Source of the DNA: Prochlorothrix hollandica PCC 9006 = CALU 1027
Lineage (GTDB): Bacteria > Cyanobacteriota > Cyanobacteriia > Prochlorotrichales > Prochlorotrichaceae
Assembly (NCBI RefSeq): GCF_000332315.1
Contig: NZ_KB235941.1
Span: 3,360 to 58,541, forward strand
Length of the DNA: 55,182 nt
Direction of reading: 5' to 3'
Shown here one piece after another: positions 46,956 through 50,837 of this stretch (position 1 is the stretch's first letter; each line of letters begins with the position of its first letter). A model generated the notes under the pieces. That model saw only the letters and a program-made list of their open reading frames with translations, searched no databases and had not been told where the DNA came from. The translations under genes and the position numbers were made by a program.

Positions 46956-47892
46956 TCACCACCCCATGGGCAATTCGGGGTCCGGTAAGGGTTCTGCCTG
47001 GGGCGATCGCACCTGGGTTTCTTGATCCAGCACCGCGATCGCCCGCTGGTAGTGGCCCTCCGCTTCCTCCAAGGAATCGCCAATACTGGTGAGACCTACC
47101 TTGCCAAACTCCGATAAACAGCCCATTAAGTGGAAAATTGTCCCGGTTTTGGTGCTGCTGTCAAAATGCAACTGGTGCAGGGTCACCATTTCGATCAAAT
47201 CCTCCGGCAGTAAGCCCCGGTACTGGATCTGCTGGAGGTTATCAGTGGCCACATAAAACTTGCCTTGGCCCGTTTGGGTATAAAACCCCCCATCAGCCCG
47301 GTTATAGTGGCCATTGGTCAAATACTTCAGGGCCATAAAGGGGTGGGTGGTGCCCCCCTTGCGCAGGTTGATCTCGATGGCTTGGGCGCTCCACGAAGCA
47401 GGTCATCAGCGATCGATCGGGGCGCAGGGCATTGGCGATGCGTTGCACCAGGCGGGTCCTTTGGAGAATTTTTTGGGTGAGGGGCTGAATGGAATTGTCA
47501 TAAATCGACAGCAACAGCAACCGGTTGCGGGCATGGGAAAAGGGAATGCCCGGTAACAGTTGCAGGTAATAGTCCACCACCATGGGGGGCAGGGGCTGGG
47601 ACGTGACATAAATCAAGCGGGTGTGGGGATTCCGCAACTGGATCAGCTCACACAGCATCCGCTCTTCATAGTGCAAAACCCCCTGCACCTTGGTCAGTTC
47701 CCGCACCGCCAAACTAATGGAGGGAATCACCAAGATGTCCCGCGATGCCTCCGTCTGGAAGTCCAATAGGGGATTATTGCGCAATTGCTGTTGCAGGGCG
47801 TGGAAGGGATCGCCCCCTGTTCCTCCCCCCAATCCGGGTAACGGAGGGAACCGATCCTCCGATACTGGCCCATCCCACTGCCCCAAACCCAT
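46956..47892 (-). pseudogene. PGM1-like ATP-grasp peptide ligase, centre deleted
   Basis: Two frames carry the ends of one family. The 5' part (47892 to about 47395) codes DILVIPSISLAVRELTKVQG, YEERMLCELIQLRNPHTRLI, VDYYLQLLPGIPFSHARNRL and RPDRSLMTCF. The 3' part (about 47390 to 46956) codes AIEINLRKGGTTHPFMALKY, LTNGHYNRADGGFY and VTLHQLHFDSSTKTGTIFHL. In relatives of peptide ligase PGM1 these flank a ~200-residue ATP-grasp centre, which is missing here, and the joint is out of frame. The remaining ends are well conserved, so the loss looks recent. Confidence 0.85.
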
Positions 47893-48087: not shown

Positions 48088-48250
48088 ATTGTCACCAACC
48101 CCGCGCTAAAGCGACGGGGCTTGTCGAAAGCTAAAGCCAATAGCGGGAAGCAAGCGTAAGTGGGACTAGACAACGGCTGAAAAGCCAATTTGAATTAGCT
48201 GAAGGTGGCACTTCAAAAGACGTTACGGGCACCTCCCTAACCTGTATCCT
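48088..48250. mobile_element. Possible IS200/IS605-type end remnant
   Basis: A hairpin CCCCG-CGCTAAAGCG-CGGGG followed by CTTGTCGAAAGC resembles the right ends of IS605-type elements (compare GGGGAGCATGTCAAG at 24846-24860). Another hairpin, CCGTCCTAAAAGGACGG, at 48452-48468 resembles the left ends. A MITE lies between. The assignment is weak. Confidence 0.35.
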
Positions 48251-48256
48251 CTCTGC

Positions 48257-48359
48257 TACAGCAACCCTAAATCAGTTGTAAGGATCTCGACGGCTGAAAC
48301 TCTTGGTGTGGTGTGCCCCCGGAGGGGGCACACCACACGACCCATTTAGGACTGCTGTA
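48257..48359. repeat. TA-flanked palindromic MITE, copy 9 (103 bp)
   Basis: TACAGCAACCCTAAAT to ATTTAGGACTGCTGTA with an intact GTGCCCCCGGAGGGGGCAC hairpin. It lies 160 bp upstream of the AlbA-like gene. Confidence 0.85.
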
Positions 48360-48518
48360 GTCAAAGTCGAAGGGATTTATACATAGGTTTTTCTGGTTTC
48401 CTAGGCTTATCGCCATTCAAAAAACCAGTCCCTTAACGGGAATTGTAAAGCCGTCCTAAAAGGACGGAGTTTCTACCCACATTTTCTGATGAGTCAGGAG
48501 AACTTTCAAGATTGATGC

Positions 48519-49709
48519 ATGGATGATCAAGAGCTGACGGCACTTCTCGGTGATCTTGAATCTGATAGAGTTGAACGTAAAGCGTCAACTTCAGATGGTA
48601 AAAAAATAAGACAGGCAATTTGTGCCTTCGCTAACGATCTACCCAACCACAAAAAGTCTGGAGTTCTTTTTGTAGGCGTTAAGGATAATGGCACCTGCGC
48701 CAACTTGTCGATTACAGATGAGCTGCTCCTGAGCCTTTCCAGCATACGCTCTGAAGGAAAAATCTTGCCATTTCCGGTATTGCAAGTTAACAAACGTATT
48801 CTAGATGGCTGTGAATTGGCAGTCGTTATTGTCGAGCCATCAGATGCTCCTCCCGTTAGATTCGACGGACGGACTTATATTCGAGTTGGCCCTAGACGCG
48901 CAACCGCCACACCTGAAGAAGAACGTCGCCTTAATGAAAAAAGACGCGCAAGAGACCTACCTTTTGATTTACAATCACTGCCCTCGACTAGCCTTGCTGA
49001 TCTTAACTTAGAGTTCTTTCAACAATCTTATTTGCCTGTTACCCTGGCTCCAGATGTATTAGAGGAAAACCAGCGCTCCCTTGACCAGCAACTGGCCTCA
49101 GCCCGTTTTACTACTCCTCCACCAGAGTCTTGCCCCACAGTTTTAGGAATTCTGACCATTGGTAAAGAACCTAGGTTCTTTGTTCCTGGCCACTATGTTC
49201 AGTTTTTAAGAGTAGATGGTACTGAGTTGGGCGATCCCATTAAAGATCAAAAGGAAATCAGTGGCTCATTGTTGGATATTCTGCGAATCCTAGATGAAAC
49301 ATTACAAATCAATATTGCGACTGCCTCTGATATTACTCGTCAGAGTCTGGAAATACAGCAACCAGACTATCCGATCCAAGCCCTACAACAGCTTGCTAGA
49401 AATGCTGTGATGCACCGATCCTATGAACAAACGAATGCTCCCGTTAAGGTGTATTGGTTTAACGATCGCATTGAAATCCAAAATCCAGGGGGATTATTTG
49501 GTCAAGTTAATCAAGCCAATTTTGGTCAAGGTGGCACAGATTACCGTAATCCTCACCTCGCTGGGGTGATGAAAGATTTAGGCTACGTGCAGCGTTTTGG
49601 TTATGGCATACCCACTGCTAAACGTGCATTGGAAAGAAATGGTAACCCTCCCCCGGAATTCTCTTTAGATGACACGTTTACATCAGTCATTATTAGGAGC
49701 AAGCCATGA
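48519..49709 (+). CDS. AlbA_2 (Schlafen-like) DNA-binding / ATP-binding protein
   Basis: The product is 396 residues. Residues ~10-125 are an AlbA_2 domain (DLESDRVERKASTSDGKKIR, FANDLPNHKKSGVLFVGVKD, RTYIRVGPRRATATPEEERR), found in Schlafen-type proteins and bacterial regulators. The C-terminal ~140 residues resemble the HATPase_c_4 domain of RecG-like regulators (ALQQLARNAVMHRSYEQTNA, FNDRIEIQNPGGLFGQVNQA, RNPHLAGVMKDLGYVQRFGY, GIPTAKRAL). The family is often called a putative transcriptional regulator, and many members sit in defence islands. It is AT-richer than the core and its stop overlaps the ATG of the ParA-like gene by 4 bp. Confidence 0.85.
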   Translation: MDDQELTALLGDLESDRVERKASTSDGKKIRQAICAFANDLPNHKKSGVLFVGVKDNGTCANLSITDELLLSLSSIRSEGKILPFPVLQVNKRILDGCELAVVIVEPSDAPPVRFDGRTYIRVGPRRATATPEEERRLNEKRRARDLPFDLQSLPSTSLADLNLEFFQQSYLPVTLAPDVLEENQRSLDQQLASARFTTPPPESCPTVLGILTIGKEPRFFVPGHYVQFLRVDGTELGDPIKDQKEISGSLLDILRILDETLQINIATASDITRQSLEIQQPDYPIQALQQLARNAVMHRSYEQTNAPVKVYWFNDRIEIQNPGGLFGQVNQANFGQGGTDYRNPHLAGVMKDLGYVQRFGYGIPTAKRALERNGNPPPEFSLDDTFTSVIIRSKP

Positions 49710-50728
49710 CCCCACCCATTCTTGCCTTCTTCAACAATAAAGGAGGAGTTGGAAAAACATCCCTCGTCTATCATTTAGCTTGGATGTATTTTGATCTAGG
49801 CTTAAAAGTGATAGCAGCCGATTTAGATCCTCAAGCTAACTTAACAGCGGCTTTTCTAGATGAAGATCGATTGGAAGAAATCTGGGAAGGTGGTAATACT
49901 GACAGCTATAATACTATCTTTCGATGCGTCAAGCCCTTATTAAGTGGTATCGGCGATATTGCAACTCCAAATCTAGAGAAAATAGAAGATGGATTAAGCC
50001 TTTTAATTGGCGACTTACAGCTTTCTGGGTTTGAAGATGAATTGTCCTCCCAGTGGTCTGATTGCCTCGATCGCAAAGAACGAGCTTTCAGGGTTATCTC
50101 TGCTTTTTGGCGAGTTTTAAGTCAATCAGCTTCTGTGGATAGTGCCGATGATAGTGCTGACGTTATTTTGGTTGATTTAGGACCTAACTTAGGAGCACTT
50201 AACCGAGCGGCCCTGATTGCCTCGGACTACGTTATCGTTCCTCTCTCACCCGATCTTTTCTCCTTACAGGGACTCAAGAACCTGGGTCCAACCGTAAGAC
50301 GTTGGCGAGGAGAATGGCAGGAGCGTCTTCCTAAAAACCCAGTCCTAGACCTTGCACTACCACCAGGGAAAATGCAACCCATTGGTTACGTTATTCTCCA
50401 GCATGGTGTTCGATTTGATCGCCCTGTAAAAGCATTTCAACGATGGATCGAGCGAATTCCACATACTTACAATACTGAAGTTATTCAAAGACAAGGTGAA
50501 ATTATCTCGACTCCAGCAAGAGATCCAAATCGATTAGCGTTACTGAAACACTATCAAAGCTTAATGCCAATGGCCCAAGAGTCCCATAAACCCATTTTTC
50601 ATCTTAAACCGGCTGATGGGGCGATCGGTTCTCACATCTCTGCGGTTAGAGATGTCTATCAGGACTTTAAAGCGCTGGCTCAGGAGATTGCCGATCGCAC
50701 TGAACTCCTATTGCCTGACTCTCCATAA
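49706..50728 (+). CDS. ParA/MinD-type P-loop ATPase
   Basis: The product is 340 residues. The deviant Walker A motif KGGVGKTS is at residues 12-19, the switch DLDPQ at 39-43 and Walker B-like VILVDLGPNLGALNRAALIA near 152-171. The C-terminus (FDRPVKAFQRWIERIPHTYN, EIADRTELLLPD) is longer than in minimal ParA. ParA ATPases move DNA or protein cargo along the nucleoid. There is no parB-like gene or centromere-like array here, so plasmid partition is unlikely. The ATGA overlap with the AlbA-like gene implies one functional unit. Confidence 0.88.
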   Translation: MTPPILAFFNNKGGVGKTSLVYHLAWMYFDLGLKVIAADLDPQANLTAAFLDEDRLEEIWEGGNTDSYNTIFRCVKPLLSGIGDIATPNLEKIEDGLSLLIGDLQLSGFEDELSSQWSDCLDRKERAFRVISAFWRVLSQSASVDSADDSADVILVDLGPNLGALNRAALIASDYVIVPLSPDLFSLQGLKNLGPTVRRWRGEWQERLPKNPVLDLALPPGKMQPIGYVILQHGVRFDRPVKAFQRWIERIPHTYNTEVIQRQGEIISTPARDPNRLALLKHYQSLMPMAQESHKPIFHLKPADGAIGSHISAVRDVYQDFKALAQEIADRTELLLPDSP

Positions 50729-50734
50729 CTCTTG

Positions 50735-50831
50735 GGCACCTCGAAAAATCCACATTTTCGCCCAGTGACCCACGTAAGAATCAGGCTTGTGGCGGGCGGC
50801 GAAGCCGCCCGCCACAATTAATCGAGGTGCC
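50735..50831. repeat. MITE with GGCACCTCGA ends and 6-bp duplication
   Basis: A perfect 10-bp inverted repeat (GGCACCTCGA / TCGAGGTGCC) bounds 97 bp. CTCTTG flanks both sides (50729-50734 and 50832-50837). The centre has a GC-rich palindrome (GTGGCGGGCGGC / GCCGCCCGCCAC). Inserted just after the ParA-like gene. A solo end is at 35224. Confidence 0.8.
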
Positions 50832-50837
50832 CTCTTG

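Follow-up and report, generated by a model that had tools for sequence, protein, structure and literature searches.

A gene encoding a Schlafen-type protein, slfA, and a gene encoding a ParA-like ATPase form a conserved two-gene unit that probably acts as a mobile toxin-antitoxin-like module of abortive-infection defense, in which ParA would restrain a Schlafen RNase until infection. This reading draws on three observations: the pair lies within Hma, DISARM-like, and BREX operons in some genomes, the subfamily of its ParA is elsewhere joined to SIR2, HEPN, and RelA effectors, and slfA decays more often than parA. The pair keeps a constant form while occurring patchily over many bacterial phyla and some archaea, at times inside anti-phage systems, and we therefore consider it a probable widespread switch in phage defense.

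The pair in Prochlorothrix hollandica

The window analyzed here is the whole stretch of 55,182 nucleotides from Prochlorothrix hollandica. An earlier note on this DNA had described two open reading frames with an ATGA overlap, and both their positions (48519-49709 and 49706-50728) and their domain content were borne out. The features of the locus are as follows.

48519..49709, + strand: slfA, Schlafen/AlbA_2 plus HATPase_c_4 protein, 396 aa, predicted RNase effector (toxin); from the ORF, Pfam, homologues 5' of ParA, and an AF2 model
49706..50728, + strand: parA-like gene, deviant Walker A ATPase, 340 aa, predicted antitoxin or sensor; from the ORF, Pfam, the PDB 3pg5 relative, and an AF2 model
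49706..49709, + strand: ATGA overlap of slfA and parA, probable translational coupling; identical 4-nt overlap in 80 of 92 distinct pairs
48558..48899, + strand: SLFN_AlbA_2 domain, SlfA residues 14-127 (Pfam E 7e-15), with candidate catalytic acids E14, E19, and D56
49437..49694, + strand: HATPase_c_4 domain, SlfA residues 307-392, GHKL-type nucleotide-binding fold (Pfam E 6e-19)
49739..49759, + strand: deviant Walker A motif KGGVGKT, ParA residues 12-18, from the sequence; changed in a few cyanobacterial copies
50558..50605, + strand: C-terminal signature SLMPMAQESHKPIFHL of ParA, common to SlfA-, SIR2-, and HEPN-partnered ParA-like proteins
48257..48360, no strand: palindromic MITE, 104 bp, upstream; context, outside the system; at least 40 genome copies
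50734..50833, no strand: MITE, 100 bp, 5 bp past the ParA stop; context, outside the system; about 39 full genome copies

The pair is indeed richer in AT than its surroundings (GC 44.5%, versus 54.3% for the window); measured against windows of 2.2 kb, whose GC averages 54.4% with an SD of 3.5, it is low and not the lowest stretch. The two MITE-like repeats said to flank it are also real, the second beginning 5 bp after the ParA stop. Both families are found across the whole 5.65-Mb genome, with copies of the upstream family sharing 83-99% identity, so that the pair's place between two MITEs is unremarkable and carries little information. For the same reason, we rejected the idea of a MITE-borne element. 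As reported earlier, neither a parB nor a phage gene was seen adjoining the pair in the window, and reading of the ORFs revealed no BREX, DISARM, or Hma core genes among its neighbors; the flanks comprise metH, a broken ligase-like gene, a hypothetical protein, and thiG.

Several smaller observations concern the same genome. On the minus strand beside metH, positions 46956-47892 read as a likely cyanobacterial peptide-ligase-like gene split into two ORFs. Positions 48091-48495 hold a repeated element, possibly an IS200/IS605-type remnant, which is broken by the 104-bp palindromic MITE and has contiguous copies at G000:C5:95936-96239 and C1:549895-550200. Two distant AlbA_2-HATPase genes (L002 and L003, G000:C5:281273-293928), 25-27% identical to SlfA, are located about 8 kb apart without this ParA.

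SlfA is probably an RNA-cutting Schlafen-type protein, judging from its sequence and modeled fold. Pfam (SLFN_AlbA_2), VIA-align, and Foldseek all place it in the AlbA_2 fold. All 32 of the 32 homologues have E14 and E19; N295 and H299 are likewise invariant among the homologues, and position 56 is D in 28 of the 32 and N in the other four. Matched by spacing, E14/E19/D56 correspond to the three-carboxylate triad E205/E210/D248 of SLFN13 (5/37 versus 5/38). The AF2 model (pLDDT 87, pTM 0.62) resembles, in its N-terminal domain, the RecG-related AlbA_2 domain 2kyy and the SAMD9 domains 7ksp and 9o0d (VIA-align Z 9.1-9.9) and, in its C-terminal domain, SpoIIAB and histidine-kinase domains at similar Z. 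Foldseek matched the model to SLFN11 at E 7.5e-4, and no SLFN protein was among the 50 VIA-align matches listed. The protein ends at the HATPase domain, and Pfam detects AlbA_2 and HATPase_c_4 only, with no HEPN.

The ParA-like protein (Pfam AAA_31/CbiA; AF2 pLDDT 91) has as its nearest solved structure DIP2308 of C. diphtheriae (3pg5), with a full-length profile match at E 4e-66. The structure nearest to SlfA, DIP2311 (3lmm, Z 22.6), comes from the same species; its rmsd of 15 over 353 residues indicates that the domains match and that their mutual placement differs. DIP2311 (583 aa) is longer than SlfA, and both C. diphtheriae proteins are uncharacterized. Their locus tags are near neighbors, three apart, and the two genes are thus not an overlapping pair.

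Conservation, spread, and unequal decay

The earlier note had made its proposal depend on the adjacency recurring in other genomes. SlfA and ParA genes proved to be neighbors in dozens of genera from many phyla, with no tie to parB. Among 386 cyanobacterial genomes, 20 encode a close ParA homologue (E below 1e-90; 26 genomes at E 1e-30), and at all 20 loci an SlfA sequence or remnant is found directly 5' of it. The search starting from SlfA returned 18 genomes, all within the ParA set; the missing two hold SlfA remnants only. We then scanned the cyanobacterial ParA alignment against 84,980 species genomes, obtaining at least 527 confirmed relatives. SlfA or its remnant was directly upstream in 75 of the best 80 of these, a count that excludes two viral loci and the distant L121 match, and the same held for both close viral ParA homologues. 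Record titles of the best 80, many of them metagenome bins, cover cyanobacteria, deltaproteobacterial lineages, Planctomycetota, Acidobacteriota, Anaerolineae, Nitrospirae, Elusimicrobia, Bacteroidetes, Acidimicrobiia, and methanogenic archaea. This conservation is far beyond chance, and the adjacency is real and ancient.

Within each lineage, the pair is sparse. It was detected in 12 of 294 planctomycetes, in 8 of 297 relatives of a Syntrophaceae genome, and, with a looser profile and threshold, in 4 of 296 genomes of a fourth phylum sample; each of the four samples, the cyanobacterial one included, counts its own seeding genome. ParA was present in 7 of the 28 nearest relatives, the genome itself included. 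The ParA tree mixes archaeal copies with planctomycete, chloroflexal, and proteobacterial ones. Patchy occurrence, an intermixed tree, and constant pairing together indicate, at the level of sequence comparison, horizontal transfer of a two-gene cassette. For the pair against its relatives, dN (0.07-0.20) is well below dS (0.7-3.6).

Five loci (L121, L135, L141, L155, and L167) carry a close ParA without adjacent SlfA. No replacement effector was evident at any of them, the first four being judged by ORF layout; at L167, the gene overlapping ParA encodes an alpha/beta hydrolase. The ORF upstream in L302 encodes a carboxyl-transferase-type protein. CobN, an AcrB transporter, and other large neighbors of the pair were checked and look unrelated.

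The two genes differ in how often they decay. At 14 of 113 loci, slfA is broken or absent, with room for it upstream, while ParA is full-length, though draft-assembly errors could explain some of the slfA frameshifts among these 14. Neither the cyanobacterial nor the planctomycete search with SlfA yielded a full-length SlfA of this family lacking ParA; G523 encodes both, on separate contigs. The planctomycete genome G616 encodes an SlfA of 359 of 397 aa, missing the last 38 residues with the catalytic domain intact, and no ParA. Others show damage to both genes. Were decay equal, a hand estimate gives a 2-3% chance of finding no intact-SlfA orphans, a figure that ignores phylogeny and is only suggestive. 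The more frequent decay of SlfA fits a dangerous protein restrained by ParA slightly better than one that ParA activates. Separately, in L340 (G578), a deletion has apparently fused the first part of slfA (residues 2-117) to the last part of parA (residues 230-327).

Defense operons and partner exchange

In several genomes the pair is embedded in an anti-phage operon. The order HmaA-SlfA-ParA-HmaB was observed at L132/L323, L142, L143, and L163, and ParA-HmaB at L149; at L132/L323, HmaB is followed by a DUF4143 ATPase and then a relative of HmaC. PADLOC and Pfam identified the adjoining Hma genes as HmaA (SNF2 helicase, 535 bits), HmaB (DUF1156 methylase, 361), and HmaC (DUF499, 451). ParA and HmaB overlap in the 4-nt manner in several genomes, making chance adjacency implausible. 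One locus reads DrmD-SlfA-ParA-MmeI-type methylase and is DISARM-like (L040), and one from the viral collection reads PglX-SlfA-ParA-PglZ-BrxL, a BREX arrangement (L169). Overall, 16 of 113 distinct loci have an Hma, DISARM, or BREX gene on the same strand within 400 nt, a raw count that includes some fragments or weak matches. Most pairs stand alone, without a recognizable defense neighbor. No PADLOC system covers the SlfA-ParA pair; partial matches linked SlfA to pAgo and SIR2-Ago models and the Walker region of ParA to PDC-M28B.

At 10 further loci of the 113, a UvrA-like gene adjoins the pair, possibly just the host uvrA. These genes, from about ten cyanobacteria (L046-L052, L110, L123, and L129), encode proteins of 920-1000 aa and lie 29-176 nt 5' of the pair. 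We set aside the UvrA-like protein of 980 aa as a third component, since outside the cyanobacteria it was not found beside the pair, and it may be a host uvrA at a shared insertion site.

Distant full-length relatives of ParA, about 25-40% identical, have other partners. SIR2-like genes follow ParA at seven loci (L031, L033, L034, L063, L064, L065, and the viral L170), HEPN_RiboL-PSP genes at five (L056-L059 and L071), and RelA/SpoT-like genes at two (L055 and L066). These effector genes are located downstream of ParA, whereas SlfA is upstream, and they nearly always overlap the ParA gene. The profile of the SlfA-type ParA and that of a SIR2-type ParA align almost from end to end, with 35% identity. 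The aligned part takes in the C-terminal motif SLxPxxQ...PxFxL, located past the point where a typical partition ParA stops. ParA proteins with the same type of partner group together on the tree (7 changes, compared with 23.6 in shuffles): the SIR2, HEPN, and RelA groups form one clade each, as does the SlfA group bar a few orphans. The deep branches are long, leaving the order of the clades unsure.

A broader proposal, on which we are evenly divided, is that this ParA subfamily may serve as an NTPase gate in bacterial immunity generally, its conserved C-terminal region docking in separate lineages onto four unrelated effectors: a Schlafen RNase, a SIR2 NADase, a HEPN RNase, and a RelA/SpoT-type nucleotide synthetase. 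The Schlafen form would be widespread and plugged repeatedly into BREX, DISARM, and Hma as a second line, and orphan ParA proteins of phages may disarm the gate or protect lysogens. Orphan members were observed in Salmonella phage SE1 (L316), Pf1 (L317), a Helicobacter prophage (L318), and E. coli KE47 (L067), close to repressors of the CI or S24 type or within accessory regions, and near SieB and Ral in SE1. Such genes are candidates for counter-defense or superinfection functions, which, if the gate exists, would extend to those in the lysogeny regions of P22-like SE1 and of Pf1. A protein of 236 aa with no Pfam match (L072:5989-6699) overlaps a ParA of the broad subfamily and is possibly a further effector type.

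Candidate mechanism, alternatives, and related systems

Most economically, the pair is read as a Schlafen RNase that a ParA-type NTPase restrains and that infection sets free. SlfA, fused to its GHKL-type nucleotide-binding domain, would act as an RNase, probably on tRNA or rRNA. The ParA-like ATPase, co-translated with it through the ATGA overlap, would bind SlfA by its subfamily-specific C-terminal region, and the resulting nucleotide-dependent complex would keep SlfA inactive. On phage infection, the state of ParA may change in response to a phage protein, to shifts in nucleotide pools, or to the breakdown of a companion BREX, DISARM, or Hma system; the freed SlfA would then stop translation and abort the infection. 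Several findings sit less well with such a module: only 16 of the 113 loci have an adjoining defense gene and the window copy has none, the Walker A motif is altered in some ParA copies, and the SIR2-, HEPN-, and RelA-linked relatives share only about 25-32% identity with the window protein and have the effector downstream.

The main rival assigns ParA the opposite role, sensing infection and switching on an otherwise silent SlfA, which would still constitute defense. ParA proteins cycle between nucleotide states, as suits an activator. In PARIS, AriA acts on AriB in this manner, and dyads of this ATPase-plus-nuclease type are recruited to BREX loci (PMC12839542). The SlfA copy of G616, nearly complete and without ParA, is unexpected under a strict antitoxin model and leans the same way. 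The more frequent loss of SlfA than of ParA argues slightly against an activator, which we judge rather unlikely. More doubtful is that the pair is an accessory regulator, with SlfA as a nucleic-acid-binding, ATP-responsive protein that, together with ParA, would control expression or assembly of BREX-, DISARM-, or Hma-like loci and have no toxin activity. AlbA_2-HATPase relatives are often annotated as transcription regulators, or named regulators or RecG-like, which favors this regulator and counts against an effector module, and the pair does reside within methylation-based defense operons in some genomes. Most copies, however, have no such operon beside them, the Schlafen catalytic glutamates are invariant, SlfA stops at its HATPase domain without the C-terminal region of the longer DIP2311, and related ParA clades bear the toxin-like enzymes SIR2, HEPN, and RelA.

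The earlier note had also entertained a positioning ATPase and element maintenance. In a partition or maintenance system, the ParA-like ATPase would segregate or position an element, and SlfA would be its centromere-binding adaptor. The ParA fold, the deviant Walker A motif, and matches to plasmid partition ATPases recall ParABS, and relatives of this ParA occur on plasmids and phages. The pair itself, however, is chromosomal, and two ParB queries (E<1e-8, which a diverged ParB could escape) found no ParB relative in the 113 loci. No NCBIfam partition equivalog model comes anywhere near its cut-off, and the 340-aa protein extends, in its subfamily C-terminal region, past the ~250 aa of Soj/ParA. 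Its subfamily swaps effectors (SIR2, HEPN, and RelA), not centromere-binding proteins. With no detectable ParB and exchange of effectors, the partition reading fails; we rejected a partition system and regard such a function as highly improbable. Of the defense or maintenance system proposed earlier, the conserved pair and its link to defense are supported, and the partition part was dropped.

The restrained-RNase module we favor has precedents, and calling it undescribed is apt for the pairing with ParA and not for the Schlafen component (PMC12839542) or the ParA/Soj-HEPN dyad (PMC3710099). The latter, a HEPN protein of the MAE_18760 family with a ParA/Soj ATPase, was predicted to be a toxin-antitoxin system with the ATPase as antitoxin (Anantharaman et al. 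2013, PMC3710099), and ParA relatives adjoining HEPN_RiboL-PSP genes were also found here. SlfA-ParA likewise joins two genes, one for a probable RNase effector and one for a ParA/Soj-like ATPase, but its effector is a Schlafen AlbA_2 plus GHKL protein, not HEPN, and its gene order is reversed, effector first. Schlafen RNases with a minimal histidine kinase and a wHTH were described in 2026 beside BREX and BREX-related loci in at least 1017 taxa (PMC12839542), a text in which ParA is absent. SlfA shares with them the combination of Schlafen and GHKL, a location by BREX/DUF499 loci, and a predicted abortive-infection effector role; unlike them, it lacks a wHTH, has ParA as its partner, and usually has no recognizable defense neighbor. 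PARIS, composed of the ATPase AriA and the TOPRIM nuclease AriB, which cleaves host tRNA, is recruited to BREX loci (PMC12839542). SlfA-ParA resembles it as a two-gene module of an ATPase and a predicted nuclease found at such loci, whereas both its ATPase (ParA/SIMIBI rather than OLD-ABC) and its nuclease are unrelated.

We found no report of the SlfA-ParA pair in the literature on Schlafen, ParA, and defense. The new elements here are that the pairing is constant, that it is independent of BREX and related systems, and that four effector folds have a ParA switch in common. If correct, many genes annotated as chromosome- or plasmid-partition ATPases would be immune switches, the Schlafen form alone being present in about 3-5% of sampled genomes of three phyla, and the ParA-type NTPase would join the few known regulators of swappable death effectors. 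The pair would also offer a simple toxicity and rescue test bed for bacterial control of Schlafen RNases, kin of the human antiviral SLFN and SAMD9. A possible second dyad of a Schlafen and an ATPase was observed on many enterobacterial and pseudomonad plasmids, where AlbA_2 "RNA-binding domain" proteins occur with TrlF-family AAA-like ATPases.
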